IMG/VR virus record: IMGVR_UViG_3300031772_000079
Coordinates: 1 to 42,299 of that record
Length of the DNA stretch: 42,299 nucleotides
Origin: a virus
Direction: 5' to 3' (one strand)
Of this stretch, positions 2,844-41,420 are shown piece by piece. The notes beneath the pieces are model-generated. The model was not told where the DNA came from, made no database searches, and was given only the letters and a program-made list of their open reading frames with translations. The translations under genes and the position numbers were made by a program. How positions within the stretch are numbered: the stretch's first letter is position 1; each line of letters begins with the position of its first letter.

Positions 2844-2869
2844 GTATGAAAAAATTCAAATTTTTATAT

Positions 2870-3023
2870 AGTGTTTCTTACGATGTAAATCAATTTAATG
2901 TCGAAATATACCAAAAAATTAAATTTTTGAATTATTTTTTATATTATAACTCATTATATTATAAGGAATTATAGAGATGATAAAAAATATTTTAAAAAAA
3001 TATTAAAAAGTTGATGTATTTTT
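2870..3023 (+). repeat. 154-bp direct repeat, copy 2
   Basis: This is the second copy of the element at 1689-1842, offset by 1,181 bases and about 97% identical by eye. Similarity extends loosely through an AACAA-rich leader into the ATGAAACAG start of the gene at 3087. The two copies bracket a four-gene cassette. Confidence 0.85.
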
Positions 3024-3086
3024 TATATTTTTAATGTATATTATATAGTAGATAGTAATTAATAACAATAACAAAAGGGGTTTGAA

Positions 3087-7753: not shown

Positions 7754-8317
7754 ATGTATATTCGGAAAAGAAAAGTAAATAAACTTCCTTTTGAGTTGAC
7801 AAATACAATATTGAATTGTCATAGATGCAAACTATCTCAATTTAGAAATCATGTTGTTATAGGAACAGGTAAAATCCCAGCAAAAATTTTATTTTTGGGT
7901 GAAGCTCCAGGTAAATCTGAGAATGTAAGTGGTATTCCTTTTTTTGGATTATCAGGAAATTTGTTGAGAGAAATAATTACAGATGCATGCAAATTAGGAA
8001 ATATTGATAAAATGCCAGATTATTATATCACTAATACTGTACTTTGTAGACCGTGTGATTTTTCAGGCGGTCAAAATAGAGCACCAAATAATAATGAGGT
8101 GTTGATGTGTGCCCCATTAGTACTTGAAATTATCAGACATATAAAACCTGAATTAGTTGTTTTTGTAGGTGATATAGCATATAATTATTACAAAAAAGAA
8201 TTTAATAATCATGTAAAGATTTTTCATCCTGCTTTCTTACTACGTAAAGGGGGTAAGGGATGTATACATTATGGAGCAACAATAAAAATTTTATCGGATG
8301 CATTGAAAGGAGTATAA
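7754..8317 (+). CDS. Uracil-DNA-glycosylase-like protein (4Fe-4S, family 4/5 type)
   Basis: The 187-residue product has the UDG superfamily pattern: CHRCKLS near residue 23, LGEAPGKSE (motif A) near residue 51, PFFGLSG, TNTVLCRPC near residue 95, a Cys near residue 118, and a late HPAFLL (motif B) near residue 155. The four spaced cysteines suit an iron-sulphur cluster. Family members remove uracil or act in phage DNA replication. The N-terminus MYIRKRK precedes the domain and matches the start of the next protein. The gene begins five bases after the RuvC-like gene. Confidence 0.8.
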   Translation: MYIRKRKVNKLPFELTNTILNCHRCKLSQFRNHVVIGTGKIPAKILFLGEAPGKSENVSGIPFFGLSGNLLREIITDACKLGNIDKMPDYYITNTVLCRPCDFSGGQNRAPNNNEVLMCAPLVLEIIRHIKPELVVFVGDIAYNYYKKEFNNHVKIFHPAFLLRKGGKGCIHYGATIKILSDALKGV

Positions 8318-13426: not shown

Positions 13427-15481
13427 ATGGATATAAAGAATAATCTAAAAACATTTTATCAACACGGATTTGTGGAAATTGAAGAAACTGGTAACCAAAT
13501 ACGGGGTTATTGTCCTTTTTGTAATGGAGATAAATTTTTTGTAAACTATGAGATTAAAGGTTGGGATTGCAAACACTGTGGCAGGAATGGTGGGTATCAA
13601 AGATTTTTACAACAAATAGCAGAGTATTGTAAGGAGCAATTCACAGGTGAAATTATTAAAACTCTTCACAAAAACAGGAGTATTTCGAGTAGAATTTTAA
13701 AATCTTTTGATATTGGTTATAACCCAAAGACACAAAAATATACAATACCAATGTACAATAGAGATAAAAGTAAGATAATGAACATCTATATTTTTACACC
13801 AAATTCAAAAAAATTTAAAATGATTGGTACATATGGAGGGGAACAAGAGCTAATTGGGGTTGACAAATTTGACCAAAAATCCAAAATTATTTGGTTGACA
13901 GAAGGACATTGGGATTATTTAGTAATGACTGAAATACTCGAAAATTTAGAGAAAGAGAATGAAACTGTCTTGGCAGTGCCAGGGGTAACCCAGTTAAAAG
14001 ATAGTTGGATTTCATATTTTAAAGGAAAATATGTTTTTGTCTTATTTGACAATGATCATGACCAAGTAAAAGGCGGTAAGATAATAAATCCTTCCAGAGA
14101 TGGGCAAATAAAAGTTTATAACAAATTAAAGACAATAGCAAGTGAATTAAAATTCATTCACTGGAAAGAAAATTTAAAAGATGGATATGATATTCGTGAC
14201 CTTTATAAAGATAACTCTCTAAATTATGATGAAACATATACACATATAGTAAGTAATTTAAAGGATTACCCGAAAGGGTTACAAGTGCCGGAAGTTAATA
14301 TAAAGGAAAAATCAGATATTTACACAGGGAAAAGTATTCCTTGTGAACAAGTTTATGGAAAATATCAAAAATGGTTAAAGTTAAAAAACACAGAAATAAT
14401 CGATGTATTTTATGGAAGTTTGATAGCAAATAGATTACAAGGAGATCCTATTTGGTTACTCCTTGTTGGTCAATCTGGATGTGGAAAGACTGAGATCATT
14501 ATGTCAATCAAAGATGTGAGTGATATTTATAGTATTGATACATTGACAAAAAATACTCTTGTTTCTGGAGCACATGGGATTGGCGGGAGTGATCCCTCGT
14601 TAATTCCCCAACTTGACAAAAAGATACTTGCTATAAAGGATTTTACAACCATACTTGATATGCATCCTAATGATAGGGATGAAATATTTGCTCAATTACG
14701 TTCTGCTTATGATGGAGAATTTAATAAACCTTTTGGTGTGGGGATTCTACGCTCTTATGTGTCAAAATTTGGAATTATTGGTGGTGTAACAAGAGCTATT
14801 GAGTTATATACAGAAGGGAATACAGCATTAGGAGAAAGATTTTTGAGATACCATTTCCCTGTTAGCAATACACAAAAGGGAAGATTTGAAGTTATGCACA
14901 AAGCTTTACAAAATATAACCTCTAATCAAAAAGATACTATGCATAAAGAATTAAGGGAAATTGGTGCTTTGGTACTTAACTTTAACTATGAGAATGTTCC
15001 CTTGATGGATGAAAACTTTACAAATAAGTTGGTTGCACTATCAGACTGGACTTCAATGCTAAGAGGTGCAGTAATACGAGATAAATATACGAAAGAGATC
15101 ACACATAAGGCATTTATTGAGCTTGGAACAAGATTAGTTACTCAATTAGGCAAGTTATCTTTCGGGATAGGTATGTTTAAAGGAATCGATAAATTGGATA
15201 TGGATGTTTATGATTCTGTGAAAGAAGTTGCGCGAAGTTCCATACCAACAAAAAATGAAGAGTTAGTGAGAAGATTATATTTTTTAAAAGGTAAAAAAGA
15301 GTTATCTGTGAATGAATTATCTGAGATTATCGGATTACCAACAATAACTGTACAGAGAATTGCGGAGAATCTATGCATATTAGGCGCGCTATCTAAAACA
15401 AGAATTGTTGGAACTATGGTGAGTAAATATAGTTTAAGTGAAGAAATAAAAAGTTTAATTGATAAAACAGAAGTATATTGA
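13427..15481 (+). CDS. Primase-helicase (zinc finger, TOPRIM, P-loop ATPase)
   Basis: This 684-residue product probably primes and unwinds DNA at the fork. An N-terminal zinc finger (CPFC near residue 28, CKHC near residue 45) is followed by a TOPRIM domain: WLTEGHWDYLV near residue 160 and VFVLFDNDHD near residue 205. An ATPase domain has Walker A LVGQSGCGKTE near residue 347 and a Walker B-like KKILAIKDFTT near residue 400. The last about 70 residues (LSVNELSEIIGLPTITVQRIAE) look like a winged helix. No separate DnaB-type helicase is visible in the window, so this may be the replicative one. The ribosome site is weak. Confidence 0.85.
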   Translation: MDIKNNLKTFYQHGFVEIEETGNQIRGYCPFCNGDKFFVNYEIKGWDCKHCGRNGGYQRFLQQIAEYCKEQFTGEIIKTLHKNRSISSRILKSFDIGYNPKTQKYTIPMYNRDKSKIMNIYIFTPNSKKFKMIGTYGGEQELIGVDKFDQKSKIIWLTEGHWDYLVMTEILENLEKENETVLAVPGVTQLKDSWISYFKGKYVFVLFDNDHDQVKGGKIINPSRDGQIKVYNKLKTIASELKFIHWKENLKDGYDIRDLYKDNSLNYDETYTHIVSNLKDYPKGLQVPEVNIKEKSDIYTGKSIPCEQVYGKYQKWLKLKNTEIIDVFYGSLIANRLQGDPIWLLLVGQSGCGKTEIIMSIKDVSDIYSIDTLTKNTLVSGAHGIGGSDPSLIPQLDKKILAIKDFTTILDMHPNDRDEIFAQLRSAYDGEFNKPFGVGILRSYVSKFGIIGGVTRAIELYTEGNTALGERFLRYHFPVSNTQKGRFEVMHKALQNITSNQKDTMHKELREIGALVLNFNYENVPLMDENFTNKLVALSDWTSMLRGAVIRDKYTKEITHKAFIELGTRLVTQLGKLSFGIGMFKGIDKLDMDVYDSVKEVARSSIPTKNEELVRRLYFLKGKKELSVNELSEIIGLPTITVQRIAENLCILGALSKTRIVGTMVSKYSLSEEIKSLIDKTEVY

Positions 15482-15507
15482 TTTTTAAAATTTTAGGAGG
15501 TTTGAAT

Positions 15508-16194
15508 ATGCGTAAATTTATTAGAGAACGTAAACAGGAAACTAAGGAGAATCTAAATGTATCAATTGAACCAATAGATTCTGTCAATTTGTGGAAAGAG
15601 AATCCAAGAAAAAATAGTCAATCCCCATCAAATTTAGGAAAATTATTAATGTTATATGGTCAAGTTTCCCCTGTTGTGGTGTGGATTAAAAACAAAGTAA
15701 TTTATAAAGGGAATACGACTTGGAAATCGCTTGACTGGTGGAGGAAACTTGATGATAATGAATACAAAATGATACTTGATGATTTAAAACTCCCTTCAAC
15801 TTTACAAAAGCCAACAACTATAAAAGTTTTATGGCAGGATTTTAAAAATGAGGAGGATGCAGTATCTTATGGGATAGCAGATAATAAATCAAGTGAATGG
15901 ACGTTCTGGGATGAAAAAAGACTTGAGAGTTTACTTGCTCAATATTATCTGGATTTAGAAAAGTTGACAATACGAAAGGATACTACACCAACAGGATTTA
16001 CAATGAGTGAATTAAATAATTTAATATTAATACCAAATTTAGATAACCTCAAAAAGAAAGAAGGAACGAAAGAATCTGAAATTATAAAAATAAAATGTCC
16101 TCCAGAGATCAAAGATGATTTAAAGGAATGGTTAATGGAGAATTTAGATGATCATTGTCCTTTTATCGGTTTACATACGATAGAAATAGTATAA
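15508..16194 (+). CDS. ParB-like nuclease-domain protein
   Basis: The 228-residue product starts at ATG 15508, behind AGGAGG at 15495-15500. It has a ParB/Srx-type domain: NPRKN near residue 32, VIYKGNTTWKSL near residue 65, and EDAVSYGIADNKSSEWTFWD near residue 125. Stand-alone ParB-like domains of this kind are common in phages, often with DNA methylases, and may bind DNA or hydrolyse NTPs. The N-terminus MRKFIRERK carries the basic end-motif shared with four other proteins. It precedes the QueD/QueE/GCH-like group. Confidence 0.75.
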   Translation: MRKFIRERKQETKENLNVSIEPIDSVNLWKENPRKNSQSPSNLGKLLMLYGQVSPVVVWIKNKVIYKGNTTWKSLDWWRKLDDNEYKMILDDLKLPSTLQKPTTIKVLWQDFKNEEDAVSYGIADNKSSEWTFWDEKRLESLLAQYYLDLEKLTIRKDTTPTGFTMSELNNLILIPNLDNLKKKEGTKESEIIKIKCPPEIKDDLKEWLMENLDDHCPFIGLHTIEIV

Positions 16195-16208: not shown

Positions 16209-16382
16209 ATGTCAAAAATTAATTTGTGCGATCATTGTATTAGGTGGGCAGAGTTTCCACTTTGTATAGATAGATATGTTGAGTTTGGAGATGGGGTAGG
16301 TAATGACAATATTATAAAATGTAATAGGTATATACGAATTGATGAAAGTGTAGGAGGAACAAATGATAATATTAACGAGTAA
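16209..16382 (+). CDS. Small cysteine-rich protein
   Basis: The 57-residue product starts at ATG 16209, after AAAGGAG at 16194-16200. It contains CDHC at residues 7-10, then a Cys near residue 18 and another near residue 38, so a small zinc site is possible. It overlaps the QueD-like gene by 20 bases. No family is recognised. Position suggests a link to the modification genes. Confidence 0.55.
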   Translation: MSKINLCDHCIRWAEFPLCIDRYVEFGDGVGNDNIIKCNRYIRIDESVGGTNDNINE

Positions 16383-16851
16383 ATTTACGTTTGAATCGGC
16401 ACATAGATTATTTCTTTATAATGGGGATTCTGCAAATATTCATGGCCATTCATACAAAGTAGAAATTTCAATTGATGCAGAAGTTTGTGAAGAATCTAAT
16501 GTTCAAACAAATTTATTTAATGAACAGAAGGAAATAAACTATCCAGGTATCACAATTGATTTTACTTATTTAAAGTGTGTAATAGGTAATTATATAAAAA
16601 ATAAATATGATCATTCTCTTTTATTAAATAATGAAGATTCCCTAAAAGAAGTTATTGGAGAATATACAGATAAGATAGTATATTTTGACTCTAATCCAAC
16701 AGAGGAAATAATATCAATAAAATTATTTAAAGAAATAAGTGGTATTCTTTTACAAAAAGGAATTAATGGTACTTTACAAAGTGTATCTTTATGGAGTACA
16801 GAGGATAATTGTGCCATTGCAATAATTGATTCAATAATAGAGGAAATTTAA
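16363..16851 (+). CDS. queD-like: QueD-like (6-pyruvoyl-tetrahydropterin synthase family) protein with altered active site
   Basis: The 162-residue product has the QueD/PTPS fold: FESAHRL (zinc His14) and NIHGHSYKV (His27, His29), TIDFTYLK, and DH at residues 83-84. QueD normally turns dihydroneopterin triphosphate into 6-carboxytetrahydropterin in 7-deazaguanine synthesis. Two key residues differ. Ser23 stands where QueD has its catalytic Cys, four before the HGH motif. Ser145 in WST stands where the substrate-binding Glu normally sits. The zinc ligands and the Asp-His pair are kept. The fold is clear, but the reaction is uncertain. AGGAGG precedes the ATG. Confidence 0.8.
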   Translation: MIILTSKFTFESAHRLFLYNGDSANIHGHSYKVEISIDAEVCEESNVQTNLFNEQKEINYPGITIDFTYLKCVIGNYIKNKYDHSLLLNNEDSLKEVIGEYTDKIVYFDSNPTEEIISIKLFKEISGILLQKGINGTLQSVSLWSTEDNCAIAIIDSIIEEI

Positions 16852-16886: not shown

Positions 16887-17651
16887 ATGATAGTAATTAA
16901 TGATATTTTTTATTCGATTCAAGGTGAAGGTTACTACATCGGCACACCGGCAATTTTTGTACGTACCCAGGGGTGTAATTTACGATGTGGATTTTGTGAT
17001 ACAAAAGAAGCACAAGAAAGAGAGATAAAAAATTCTTTGTCTCAATGGTATACCTCTGATTTAGCGAGAAAATTGGTGGGTATGATAATTGAGCATAAAT
17101 GTAATTATATTGTATTTACAGGAGGGGAACCATTATTATTAAGGGAAAATTTAGGGGATTTGATTTATCTTATTGACGAAGAGATAAAAAGTCAAATTGG
17201 AATTTACAAAGCGAACCAATTACATTACGGAATAGAAACTAATGGTTCGCTGGATTTGGCAGAATGTGCAATAAAACCTTATCACTGGAAACAAATATCC
17301 ATTTGTCTATCCCCAAAAGTCAATAAAGGAAATCCAAGTTATATAGATTCCTCATTTTATGCCCATTGTATTTACGAAAAAAATAATTTTAAAAGAGTAT
17401 CGCTCAAATTATTGTATCCTTTTTATTTACTCTATGGTAAAGAGTACACGGCTTTACATTTTGATGATCATTATGTGCAACCACTTGTCGTAGATGTAGA
17501 ATATAATCTTTTTAGAACTGTCGAGAAAACACATAGTGAATGGATAGATTACTATTCTCTTGCATGTAAACAACTTATTACTGATTTAAATAAATTCGGT
17601 AGTATGTGGAAATTATCTATACAATTACAAAAATTATTAGGAATAAAGTGA
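16887..17651 (+). CDS. queE: QueE, 7-carboxy-7-deazaguanine synthase (radical SAM)
   Basis: The 254-residue product is a radical SAM enzyme of the QueE type, which converts 6-carboxytetrahydropterin to 7-carboxy-7-deazaguanine. Visible motifs are YSIQGEG near residue 10, the cluster motif CNLRCGFCDT (CX3CX2C, about residues 31-40), TGGEPL near residue 79, ETNGS near residue 118 and SPKVN near residue 145. All iron-sulphur cysteines are present, so unlike its neighbours it looks intact. It starts 35 bases after the QueD-like gene. Confidence 0.88.
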   Translation: MIVINDIFYSIQGEGYYIGTPAIFVRTQGCNLRCGFCDTKEAQEREIKNSLSQWYTSDLARKLVGMIIEHKCNYIVFTGGEPLLLRENLGDLIYLIDEEIKSQIGIYKANQLHYGIETNGSLDLAECAIKPYHWKQISICLSPKVNKGNPSYIDSSFYAHCIYEKNNFKRVSLKLLYPFYLLYGKEYTALHFDDHYVQPLVVDVEYNLFRTVEKTHSEWIDYYSLACKQLITDLNKFGSMWKLSIQLQKLLGIK

Positions 17652-17658
17652 GGTCGGT

Positions 17659-18663
17659 ATGAAAGTATATGTTGTTTCAGAGAATGAGTTTTTGACGTTA
17701 AGTCTTAAATTATATGAAAAAATACTCAATAAATTAAAGGAATGGGAAAGTTTTAATTGTACTCAAGATATTTTACACAAAGTGCAAATCGCTAATGATT
17801 TTCCAGGTAAAACGTGTGCAAAAGTAACTATCCACGGAATACCTAATAGTGGAGTACCGGTAGCATATAATATAGTTAGTTTACTTAATGATAATCCAGA
17901 ATTTAGATTAAAATACTATGCAACAGTTTCATTTAAACCAACTTCTAATTTTATTGTTGATATTATAAGAGACTCTGGAAAGACAAAAGAGCAGTACTCT
18001 AAAATAATACATGATCCTGATTGTTTCTTTGCTCTGATTGATAAAAAAGAAAGTGGTTTAACTGATTATTGGATAAAATTTCCCTGGGAAACTGATATTG
18101 ATAAAATTGAAGCTTTACCGGAGGATATACCTTTACAATTTTTACAGTACATAGGGGAAGATCCAAAACGGGAAGGTTTACTTGGAACACCTTCCAGGGT
18201 TATTGATCTTTGGAATTATCAATACTCTGGGTATAATGTTGATATAGAGGGATTATTTATAAATTCAAGTGAATCAAATATTGATAAAATGATAGTACTT
18301 GATAATTTGGAATATTATAGTACCTGTGAATGTCATTTATTACCAATTTTTGGTAAATGTTATATAGGGTATATTCCAAATAAAAAAATAATAGAAGTAA
18401 GTAAATTAATCCAATTAGTAGACGCCTTCTCCCAGCGTTTACAAATGCAAGAAAATTTGACTCAACAAATTGCAGGAGCGATTATGAAATATTTGGAACC
18501 TATGGGAGTAGGTGTAATTATGACCGGTAATAGTATGTGTATGCGTATGGTTTCACAGGGTATACAAAAACAAGAGCCCACTTTAAAAACTTTTGCTGTA
18601 TTAGGAGCATTCAAAGAATTTGTTGGAGCTCGCAATGAGTTTTTAAATCTTATAGCTTTGTAA
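17659..18663 (+). CDS. folE-like: Phosphoribosyltransferase fused to GTP cyclohydrolase I-like domain, altered catalytic residues
   Basis: This 334-residue product joins two domains. Residues about 55-145 look like a type I phosphoribosyltransferase: HGIPNSGVP (59-67), the PRPP-binding pattern FIVDIIRDSGKT (98-109) and WIKFPWE (138-144). Residues about 160-334 match GTP cyclohydrolase I (FolE): GTPSRV, YSTCECHLLP, YIPNKK, SKLIQLVDAFSQRLQMQE and NSMCMRM. FolE zinc ligands map to Cys223, His226 and Cys294. The catalytic His of CEHH is Cys225, and the second catalytic His (HxC motif) is Ser292. The domain may therefore stop at an intermediate or catalyse another reaction. It follows QueE by seven bases. 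Confidence 0.82.
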   Translation: MKVYVVSENEFLTLSLKLYEKILNKLKEWESFNCTQDILHKVQIANDFPGKTCAKVTIHGIPNSGVPVAYNIVSLLNDNPEFRLKYYATVSFKPTSNFIVDIIRDSGKTKEQYSKIIHDPDCFFALIDKKESGLTDYWIKFPWETDIDKIEALPEDIPLQFLQYIGEDPKREGLLGTPSRVIDLWNYQYSGYNVDIEGLFINSSESNIDKMIVLDNLEYYSTCECHLLPIFGKCYIGYIPNKKIIEVSKLIQLVDAFSQRLQMQENLTQQIAGAIMKYLEPMGVGVIMTGNSMCMRMVSQGIQKQEPTLKTFAVLGAFKEFVGARNEFLNLIAL

Positions 18664-18677
18664 AGGAATATTGATAT

Positions 18678-18923
18678 ATGAAAACTGTTGACGTGTGGAT
18701 AAAATTGGAGGATTGTGTGAGTGAGCATAGTATTAAATTTGGTAAAGCATTGATTCGATTACGTGAAAATAAAGGACTAAGTAAAGAAGAGTTATCCGAA
18801 AAGTCAGGTGTTTCGCTTTGTAGTCTTGACAGATATGAGAAAGGTTTAAATGTTCCCACAGTGCGTACTCTCAATAAATTATTAGAAATAATTGACAAGT
18901 ATCAAAAGGGAGATATAAAATAA
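18678..18923 (+). CDS. XRE-family helix-turn-helix regulator
   Basis: The 81-residue product carries a Cro/CI-type helix-turn-helix: FGKALIRLRENKGLSKEELSEKSG, then LCSLDRYEKGLNVPTVRTLNKLLEI (about residues 21-70, written here in two parts). It probably binds DNA and regulates phage genes; control regions A and B are candidate targets, by inference. The ATG at 18678 follows AAAGGAA; an internal GTG start is possible. Its stop is followed in frame by 24 more open codons (18924-18998), noted separately. Confidence 0.8.
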   Translation: MKTVDVWIKLEDCVSEHSIKFGKALIRLRENKGLSKEELSEKSGVSLCSLDRYEKGLNVPTVRTLNKLLEIIDKYQKGDIK

Positions 18924-20833: not shown

Positions 20834-21592
20834 ATGGTTGAAATGAACAAGGTATATCACGGTGACTGTCTTGATGTGATGAAAGATATTACAAGTAAGA
20901 GTGTTGACATGGTGCTATCGGATTTACCTTACGGAATGACAAGTAAGTGCGAATGGGATACTAAAATTCCTCTTATGTCATTATGGGAACAATACAGAAG
21001 GGTTATACGTGATAATGGAGCGATAGTGTTAACTGCAAGTCAACCATTTACAAGTGAGTTAGTAATGAGTAATTTAGAAATGTTTCGGTATGAATGGATT
21101 TGGAAAAAGACAAGATTTAGTAACCAAATGTTAGCTAAAAAGCAACCATTAAAGATACATGAGAATATTTTAGTATTTGGTAAAAGTGGAATAAAATATA
21201 ATCCACAAAATTTAATTAAGGTTGGCAAGGTTACAAGGCAGGGTAAGAAGCTATCTAAAGTAGTTGCTAATGGTATACGTAAAACAAAGTATTTTCAGGA
21301 ATACAGTAATTACCCTATATCGATACAATTAGTAAAAAATGAGACAGGTTTACATTCCTCACAAAAACCAGTTAAATTGTTTGAATATCTTATAAAAACG
21401 TACACCAATAAAGGGGATGTGGTTTTGGATAATTGTGCCGGTAGTGGGACAACGGGGATAGCTTGCCAGAATACTGAGAGAAAATATATTTTGATTGAGA
21501 AAGAATTAAAGTTTTGTGGATTAATAAAAAGACGATTAATGCTTAATTTGATTCAATTGCAAAAACAGAAATTTATTAGGGAACGAAAATAA
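20834..21592 (+). CDS. DNA methyltransferase, beta-class N6-adenine/N4-cytosine
   Basis: The 252-residue product transfers methyl groups to an exocyclic amino group in DNA. The catalytic motif DLPYG (a DPPY variant) lies near residue 31. The SAM-binding part comes later: HSSQKPVKLFEYLI near residue 172, then VVLDNCAGSGTTG near residue 194. This order defines the beta class. The C-terminus ends KFIRERK, the same basic peptide that starts other proteins here. No restriction partner is seen, so it probably protects or marks phage DNA. An alternative ATG lies at 20843. The terminase genes follow. Confidence 0.88.
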   Translation: MVEMNKVYHGDCLDVMKDITSKSVDMVLSDLPYGMTSKCEWDTKIPLMSLWEQYRRVIRDNGAIVLTASQPFTSELVMSNLEMFRYEWIWKKTRFSNQMLAKKQPLKIHENILVFGKSGIKYNPQNLIKVGKVTRQGKKLSKVVANGIRKTKYFQEYSNYPISIQLVKNETGLHSSQKPVKLFEYLIKTYTNKGDVVLDNCAGSGTTGIACQNTERKYILIEKELKFCGLIKRRLMLNLIQLQKQKFIRERK

Positions 21593-39606: not shown

Positions 39607-39966
39607 ATGGACTTAGCAATTAACTTGACAACTAGAGACTTAATCTTGGAGAATGGAGATTTTTATTTTGTAACTGAACAAGAAGCTTGTCGACAGCGTT
39701 TACAAATAAAATTGTTATTCTTTTTTAATGAATGGTTTTTAGATACAACTTTAGGGTTGGATTGGTTCGGAGTTGCTTTTATAAAAAATCCAAATCAAAA
39801 TTTAATTGATAATATGATACTTGTTACCATGACTGATGATTTTGAGGTCATTGAAATATTAGAATATAGTACAGAGTACTCCATTTTGTTAAGAAAATTA
39901 TCTGTAAAAATGAAATTAAGGACAATATATGGGGTATTAATTTTGAATGAGGGGATAGAAATATGA
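39607..39966 (+). CDS. Baseplate wedge protein, gp25/gpW-like
   Basis: The 119-residue product has the gp25-like layout: DLAINLTTRDLILENGDFYFV, then ACRQRLQIKLLFFFNEWFLDT and GLDWFGVAFIKNP. Such proteins initiate sheath assembly at the baseplate. It begins right after the spike gene and overlaps the J-like gene by four bases. Confidence 0.8.
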   Translation: MDLAINLTTRDLILENGDFYFVTEQEACRQRLQIKLLFFFNEWFLDTTLGLDWFGVAFIKNPNQNLIDNMILVTMTDDFEVIEILEYSTEYSILLRKLSVKMKLRTIYGVLILNEGIEI

Positions 39967-41420
39967 GTAGTTACGGGTTGACAAATACAGGTTTTAGAGT
40001 TAAACGACAAGATGCTATTTTACGCGAAATGCAAACTGATGCAATTAGTAAATTTGGAAATGTGCAGACAGATGCAGATAGTATATTAGGACAATTGCTT
40101 GGAGTACTCTCTAAACCGTCAATTGATGTGTGGGAACAATTAGCAAATATTTATTTGAATACCAACCCTGTCACTGCAACAGGAGTTTCTCTTGATTATT
40201 GTGTCGACTTTAATGGAATACAGAGGTTAAAAGCGATTGCATCCCTTGTGATAGTTGGATTACGCGGTGAGAGTAGTTCAATAATTCCTGAAGGCACACT
40301 TTTTAAATCAAATATTACAGATAATATTTTTAAAACATTATCAGATATAACTTTATCTTATGTTAATAATCATAAAGGTTATGTTGAGGTTTCTGATATT
40401 CAACCGGATACTACATATCAATTTGGTATTGACAATAGCGATACAACTACTTTGGTGGTAAGTGAAGATAGTGGAGTATCTCCTGATATTGATACATTGA
40501 TTGATTCAATGGTAGAGCAAATTAATACGGAATCTTTGTGTACTGTGACTGCCGAAAATATCGGGAATGGTGTAATTTTATTACATGCAAAGCAGGATAG
40601 CAGTGTTTTCAAATTTACAAATATTGATGAAAGTGTAAATTTTTATAATCTTGTAAATTGTCAATGTATGGTACTTGGCGCGATACCAGTATCACAGAAA
40701 ACTATTGATATTATTGAGACTCCAGTTATTGGATTAACAAATGTTAATAATTTTGAAGAGGGAGTCAAAGGAAGAGATATTGAAACGGATGCGGAATTAC
40801 GAATAAGAAGAAAAGAATCCTTACAAATAGTTGGAGCTGCTAATTTGGAAGCAATTGTAGCAAGAATGTTACGAGAAGTTGCAGGTGTGACTGTTTGTAA
40901 AGGATTTGAAAATATTGAGGATATTGAAGTTGACGGGAGACCTCCCCATAGTATAGAGATTCTTGTTGTAGGGGGAGATCCTATAGATATTGGAAATCAA
41001 CTATGGAAAACAAAAGGAGGGGGTATTAAAACTTTTGGTAGTATTAGTCGATCGGTCATTGATTCAAATGGGGATACTCAAATAATGAATTTTTCACGTC
41101 CGATAAAAAAATATGGTTGGGTATCTGCAAGTATTACAACATATAGTGAAGAAATTTTTCCTTCAAATGGTTTACAAACTATAAAAGATTTACTTTGGGA
41201 GTATGCACAGACATTTGAAGTAGGGCTTGATATTATTCCGCAAAGGTTTATAACTAATATTTATCCTAATGTTCCAGGAATAGAGAGTATTTACATAATG
41301 ATTGCAGTAACAAACTCCCCTGATGATTCTCCATCATATAATACAAATAAATTAGCAATCGCATCAAATCAAATAGCAACTTTTCATCCTAATAGAATTT
41401 TTGCAACTTTACCAGCATAA
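39963..41420 (+). CDS. Baseplate J-like wedge protein
   Basis: The 485-residue product resembles baseplate_J: an N-terminal MSSYGLTNTGFRVKRQDAIL, LDYCVDFNGIQRLKA near residue 78, a hallmark EEGVKGRDIETDAELRIRRKES near residue 260 (cited in part), then GAANLEAIVARMLREVAGV. It forms the baseplate wedge arms. A DUF2612 protein usually follows it; here that protein is at the window's left end. Confidence 0.88.
   Translation: MSSYGLTNTGFRVKRQDAILREMQTDAISKFGNVQTDADSILGQLLGVLSKPSIDVWEQLANIYLNTNPVTATGVSLDYCVDFNGIQRLKAIASLVIVGLRGESSSIIPEGTLFKSNITDNIFKTLSDITLSYVNNHKGYVEVSDIQPDTTYQFGIDNSDTTTLVVSEDSGVSPDIDTLIDSMVEQINTESLCTVTAENIGNGVILLHAKQDSSVFKFTNIDESVNFYNLVNCQCMVLGAIPVSQKTIDIIETPVIGLTNVNNFEEGVKGRDIETDAELRIRRKESLQIVGAANLEAIVARMLREVAGVTVCKGFENIEDIEVDGRPPHSIEILVVGGDPIDIGNQLWKTKGGGIKTFGSISRSVIDSNGDTQIMNFSRPIKKYGWVSASITTYSEEIFPSNGLQTIKDLLWEYAQTFEVGLDIIPQRFITNIYPNVPGIESIYIMIAVTNSPDDSPSYNTNKLAIASNQIATFHPNRIFATLPA

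Follow-up and report, generated by a model that had tools for sequence, protein, structure and literature searches.

GTP cyclohydrolase I (FolE) is the entry enzyme of 7-deazaguanine and folate synthesis. In the T. thermophilus FolE, the equivalents of E. coli H179 and H112 are catalytic, the phosphates are bound by K134, R137, R183 and R64, guanine by E150 and the ribose by S133 (PMC4005822). Replacement of H179 abolishes the activity of E. coli FolE, and a folE deletion is not complemented by a Plasmodium GCH1 bearing H279S, the counterpart of H112 (PMC4005822). The PTPS family, to which QueD belongs, is divided by the motifs CxxxHGH (PTPS-I), CxxxxxHGH (PTPS-II) and ExxHGH (PTPS-III) (PMC5041015). 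In tubercidin synthesis in Streptomyces tubercidicus, the tub activities comprise a CPH4 synthase, a radical SAM QueE, a GCH I and a purine-type phosphoribosyltransferase (PRTase), TubE, which couples PRPP with 7-carboxy-7-deazaguanine (CDG); no QueC is listed (PMC6112128). Counterparts of the PRTase-FolE fusion described here are common in phages. A tblastn search returned 33 phage records matching at least 80% of the fusion protein; they come from phages of Pseudomonas, Vibrio, Stenotrophomonas, Sphingomonas and other hosts, and their annotation reads just GTP cyclohydrolase. Among the best 80 viral-contig matches and one bacterial-contig match (L102) taken together, 75 have the PRTase motif, and the neighbours of these 75 fusion loci include DpdA in 61, QueC in 48, QueD in 69 and QueE in 73. 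Examples are found in NP1 (L003:8893-9786), VpKK5 (L005:8917-9819) and MMDA13 (L002:8989-9876), with more in L022-L099 and L102. The fusion is therefore no novelty: a Gpt-type PRTase fused to FolE is common in deazaguanine phages and present in public records, though, as a literature search found no paper describing it, apparently undescribed. DpdA removes guanine from DNA by exchange, and in these ordinary fusions the Gpt-type domain might salvage the guanine so released toward GTP, the substrate of FolE; by analogy with TubE, it may alternatively join PRPP to CDG.

The locus lies in a viral DNA of 42,299 nucleotides (hereafter the window; IMG/VR record IMGVR_UViG_3300031772_000079, positions 1 to 42,299). 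This 42.3-kb record has a low GC content (29-36%) and carries genes for replication, packaging, head and tail. In its replication region the genes for QueD, QueE, a PRTase-FolE fusion and a small HTH protein follow one another, with the following features:

16363..16851, plus strand: QueD/PTPS-like protein, Ser23 in place of the catalytic Cys and Ser145 in place of the catalytic Glu (Pfam, alignment)
16887..17651, plus strand: radical SAM enzyme resembling QueE, with its conserved residues preserved (Pfam, NCBIfam, alignment)
17659..18663, plus strand: PRTase-FolE fusion with altered active sites, 334 aa (ORF, Pfam, alignment, structure model)
17659..18096, plus strand: N-terminal Gpt/XGPRT-type PRTase domain, aa 1-146 (alignment, family profile, structure match)
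18136..18654, plus strand: FolE (GTP cyclohydrolase I) domain, aa 160-332 (PF01227)
18325..18336, plus strand: CECH, C223-E224-C225-H226, in which C223 and H226 remain as zinc ligands and Cys225 stands in place of the catalytic His (alignment)
18394..18414, plus strand: E246 where all others have Gly, unchanged S248 and K249, and Q252 where all others have Arg or Lys (equivalent to the E. coli triphosphate binder R139) (alignment; roles from PMC4005822)
18532..18558, plus strand: S292 (E. coli His179), zinc ligand C294 kept, Q300 (Arg185) (alignment)
18678..18923, plus strand: HTH_3 DNA-binding protein, 14 bases 3' of the fusion (domain match)

The fusion ORF is a genuine frame encoding 334 aa, with an ATG start. 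Residues 160-332 match PF01227 with an E value of 1.3e-52 (178 bits for a cut-off of 27). No PRTase model was among the Pfam matches of the whole protein, and residues 1-146 searched alone matched no Pfam model at all; a family profile of the N-terminal region retrieved xanthine-guanine phosphoribosyltransferases, with 5xtk as the top match (E 2e-13). An AlphaFold2 model built from an alignment of 63 sequences has a mean pLDDT of 92, a family alignment that would tend to bias the model toward the family fold. Its FolE domain superimposes on T. thermophilus FolE 1wm9_E with a Z score of 24.9 (rmsd 1.6 over 181 residues), and residues 1-150 of the model on E. coli XGPRT 4jls with a Z score of 11.4 (rmsd 3.1 over 111 residues). 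The protein has a FolE domain whose T-fold is predicted with confidence, and its N-terminal domain is predicted to adopt a type I PRTase fold. The two-domain architecture proposed initially is borne out by these matches; the PRPP-binding pattern noted at residues 98-109 reads FIVDIIRDSGKT. The fusions from Queuovirinae and comparable phages (NP1, VpKK5, MMDA13 and Stenotrophomonas phage ply2008005c) have the identical domain order, are 35-40% identical to the window protein and likewise have QueD and QueE as neighbours within the replication region; in contrast to the window, they retain CEHH and HxC, both Arg of the triphosphate site and the DD pair of the PRPP motif, and most adjoin QueC and DpdA, both of which the window lacks.

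The FolE domain was compared with 87 relatives and E. coli FolE (n=88); the E. coli sequence serves as numbering reference, and its residues are numbered +1 in the alignment relative to usual practice, the initiator Met being counted. C225 aligns with H112 and S292 with H179, and His occupies both positions in 88/88 aligned sequences where the window reads CECH and SMC. The zinc ligands C110, H113 and C181 are kept as C223, H226 and C294, the Cys, His, Cys set of type IA FolE. The loss of both catalytic His with retention of the zinc site, noted from the letters alone, is confirmed by this comparison. Three further changes affect invariant or near-invariant columns: G to E246, R to Q252 and R to Q300. 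The last two replace E. coli R139 and R185, two Arg residues that hold the triphosphate, so that among the equivalents of the four T. thermophilus phosphate binders K134, R137, R183 and R64, K249 and R180 are kept, R137 is replaced by Q252 and R183 by Q300. Also retained are Q264, the guanine-binding E265 and S248. Compared with the ordinary FolE of T. thermophilus (1wm9), human and E. coli, the window domain thus shares the fold, the zinc ligands and the guanine-binding Glu; it differs in that the two catalytic His and two of the Arg that bind phosphate are replaced, and in having an additional N-terminal PRTase. The structure search also returned PDB entry 1a8r, E. coli FolE H112S with GTP bound, in which the His is replaced at the position of Cys225, but this is a laboratory mutant with the rest of its residues intact. 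The TIGR00063 equivalog score of the window domain (174.9) falls below the cut-off of 181.6, compared with 221.9 for the phage NP1 relative; two NCBIfam subfamily models are passed.

Reversion to His would take two nucleotide changes at C225 and two at S292; the substitutions of His by Cys or Ser and of Asp by Ile each require two base changes, and that of Glu by Ser three. Because several substitutions require two or three base changes, and each His position two, single-base sequencing error is unlikely to be their source.

Published mutants of homologues strongly suggest that catalysis would be lost in this domain, and judged from its residues the fusion protein is very unlikely to be a GTP cyclohydrolase I. 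The retained zinc site, Glu265 and overall fold, together with a PF01227 score far above the cut-off, could be reconciled with an enzyme still active through substitute residues, but both His are present in all 88 aligned sequences, homologues with single mutations at these His are dead (PMC4005822) and two triphosphate Arg are lost as well; we regard such activity as highly improbable. The proposal that the domain stops at the ring-opened product of GTP is made less likely by the loss of two of the four triphosphate-holding basic residues.

The PRTase domain is altered too. Its PRPP motif, VDIIRDSGKT, keeps D101 and has Ile102 where 82/84 relatives have Asp, so that the two adjacent acidic residues of Gpt/XGPRT-type enzymes are reduced to one; D105, G107, T109, W138 and W143 are kept. 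The domain resembles Gpt XGPRT (1a95, 5xtk) in fold (Z about 11), in profile match and in a PW motif, and differs from it by Ile102 and by a PPi loop that reads PNSG rather than RGG. With the loss of the near-invariant motif Asp, the idea that the PRTase supplies or uses a nucleotide becomes doubtful, and the domain may do neither.

We found the same kind of alteration in the neighbouring QueD. At the positions of Ser23 and Ser145 its relatives have Cys (81/81) and Glu (81/81), respectively, whereas the zinc His14/27/29 and the Asp83/His84 pair are retained. The protein therefore resembles QueD, a 6-carboxytetrahydropterin synthase (PTPS-I), in family, zinc His and Asp-His pair, but has SxxxHGH in place of CxxxHGH and Ser for the catalytic Glu, and its motif matches none of PTPS-I, -II or -III. 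QueE, by comparison, keeps 24/26 conserved columns, the iron-sulphur Cys included; one of the two deviating columns is a possible alignment shift and the other is a His to Gln change also seen in 8/84 relatives. The 7-deazaguanine cassette members of the record are these QueD, QueE and FolE homologues. QueC (PF06508) and TGT/DpdA (PF01702, a model applied without a separate check on phage DpdA) were not found in the record by Pfam, and phmmer queries with phage QueC and DpdA gave no match in it, although the same queries detect them in most other loci. The initial annotation had pointed to the His, the zinc ligands and the fusion; beyond these, the two triphosphate Arg, the invariant Gly, the PRTase Asp and the QueD catalytic residues are changed, and the fusion is common. 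The finding here is that the active sites of two consecutive pathway enzymes are altered. Because the FolE residues that carry out the chemistry are replaced while the pocket is kept, and the neighbouring QueD is altered alike, the DNA-modification pathway looks as if it has been switched off or redirected.

As a tentative first choice among the explanations considered, we propose that the fusion is a pseudoenzyme that binds a base, a remnant of a 7-deazaguanine cassette retained for binding, assembly or regulation. The protein would descend from the PRTase-FolE of phage 7-deazaguanine DNA-modification cassettes and would no longer make dihydroneopterin triphosphate, lacking the pair of His responsible for opening the imidazole and ribose rings and two of the Arg that grip the triphosphate. 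It would retain FolE-like folding and assembly, hold zinc, with C223, C225, H226 and C294 possibly supplying its full set of ligands, and hold a guanine-type base through Glu265. QueD appears to be in the same state, keeping zinc with its catalytic residues gone. The altered FolE and QueD may then bind purine or pterin ligands, each other or host enzymes, and so sequester or sense a metabolite or assist QueE, which is apparently catalytically intact and could work on host-made 6-carboxytetrahydropterin. We know of no FolE or QueD pseudoenzyme with an established role. The data do not firmly separate this reading from the two discussed below, decay and new chemistry.

That the cassette is simply decaying, with QueC and DpdA lost, the pathway useless and the PRTase, FolE and QueD drifting in frames that are still open, is in our estimation somewhat unlikely. 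It would account for the missing QueC and DpdA and for damage to three domains, and the terminal branch of the window FolE is indeed long, the second longest of 83; the QueD and QueE branches are also long, with average root-to-tip distances. The altered variant is, moreover, preserved in no relative found. Single-protein searches of viral contigs with the fusion, QueD, QueE, DNA polymerase and primase gave no close relative, and the relatives of the terminase (L008-L021) are records, mostly fragments, without a match to the fusion protein. A DNA pattern of the CECH context, which does detect the window, had zero matches in viral contigs, and a looser CECH pattern had zero in 398 + 82 genomes from two phyla that are possibly not those of the host. 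Gut-phage contigs with QueD, FolE and QueE (L182-L186) retain the catalytic residues in all cases. With no close relative found in the viral contigs or in the genome groups sampled, selection of the altered residues for a new role would be hypothetical.

Against decay, however, all three reading frames are intact, QueE looks untouched, and the two- and three-base codon changes are many for very recent drift. The distribution of the losses bears on the same question and counts for the pseudoenzyme. The catalytic columns of QueD are our own assignment. Within FolE, whose roles are those of PMC4005822, and QueD together, losses affect 6/10 catalytic or phosphate-binding columns and 4/41 equally conserved others (p about 0.002), in small-number statistics that hinge on this choice of catalytic columns. 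When the two His flagged initially are excluded, the counts are 4/8 and 4/41 (p about 0.017); taken separately, neither QueD (p 0.20) nor FolE with those His left out (p 0.08) reaches significance. Non-catalytic columns of equal conservation have mostly survived (29/32 in FolE, 8/9 in QueD). As the losses are concentrated on catalytic columns, uniform neutral drift is not expected to produce this pattern.

A third reading is that the altered FolE and QueD form, with QueE, a different deazapurine route, in which the FolE-type site would process a substrate that lacks a triphosphate, Cys225 and Glu246 serving as its new catalytic groups, and the PRTase would join a deazapurine to PRPP as TubE does with CDG. 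The coordinated change of the pocket, in which triphosphate Arg are lost and an invariant Gly gives way to Glu, is consistent with it. The set QueD-QueE-FolE-PRTase without QueC also parallels TubA-B-C-E, which has the same four activities by family (PMC6112128), and DpdA-free insertion of deazaguanine via a modified dGTP has been proposed (PMC6884629). Set against this are the loss of the near-invariant PRTase motif Asp and a QueD without any PTPS-I, -II or -III motif. TubE is a separate protein, and the decarboxylase, reductase and Nudix hydrolase of the tub cluster were not found in the window; among the proteins scanned, neither a decarboxylase nor a nucleotide kinase could be identified. 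We consider this reading unlikely, less so than the fuller scheme in which altered QueD, QueE and PRTase-FolE would make up a new QueC- and DpdA-free phage deazapurine route. In that joint scheme, which we hold to be improbable, the remodelled FolE-type site would act on a non-triphosphate intermediate, the PRTase would couple the deazapurine with PRPP and the phage polymerase would put the resulting modified nucleotide into DNA. A new nucleotide-modifying enzyme, as first suggested, has some plausibility, but since QueD is altered likewise and QueC and DpdA are missing, a non-catalytic base-binder or a decaying cassette fits at least equally well.

A resemblance to QueF was also considered. 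The window protein matches PF14489 with 29.1 bits, but so do 50/63 fusion proteins, so that the match is unspecific, and a QueF-like reading was rejected on that ground; the QueF model TIGR03139 scores 37.8, below its cut-off of 86.9. In a hand alignment, Ile230 would occupy the position of the B. subtilis QueF catalytic Asp D62, and Glu246 may coincide with a QueF motif Glu.

Annotation of FolE and QueD customarily relies on the domain only, and here it would call both functional despite their missing catalytic residues. Should the proteins be kept for binding, they would be a case of phage use of metabolic pseudoenzymes; should they carry out new chemistry, they would bear on the DpdA-free entry of 7-deazaguanine into phage DNA, which is open in the literature (PMC6884629).

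The ends of the record carry a DUF2612 baseplate gene (12-584, left) and Baseplate_J (39963-41420, near the right end). In phages these two genes are usually adjacent; their position at opposite ends suggests that little of the genome is missing and disfavours a fragment artefact. The record probably covers nearly all of a circularly permuted genome.

Other features of the record and of its relatives were noted. The que genes are flanked by a ParB-like protein (15478-16194) and an N6/N4 DNA methylase (20834-21592), the phage thus encoding its own DNA methylase. A uracil-DNA glycosylase superfamily protein is encoded at 7754-8317, in the replication region. A 214-base direct repeat, 92% identical (1681-1894 and 2862-3075), flanks a small ORF (1909-2229). 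Among the 81 QueD relatives, 12 have HGY for HGH and 10 have Phe at the first zinc His (L002:8522-8989, L007:8535-8981, also L034, L039, L071 and others); these proteins are seemingly without two of the three zinc ligands and keep the catalytic Cys.
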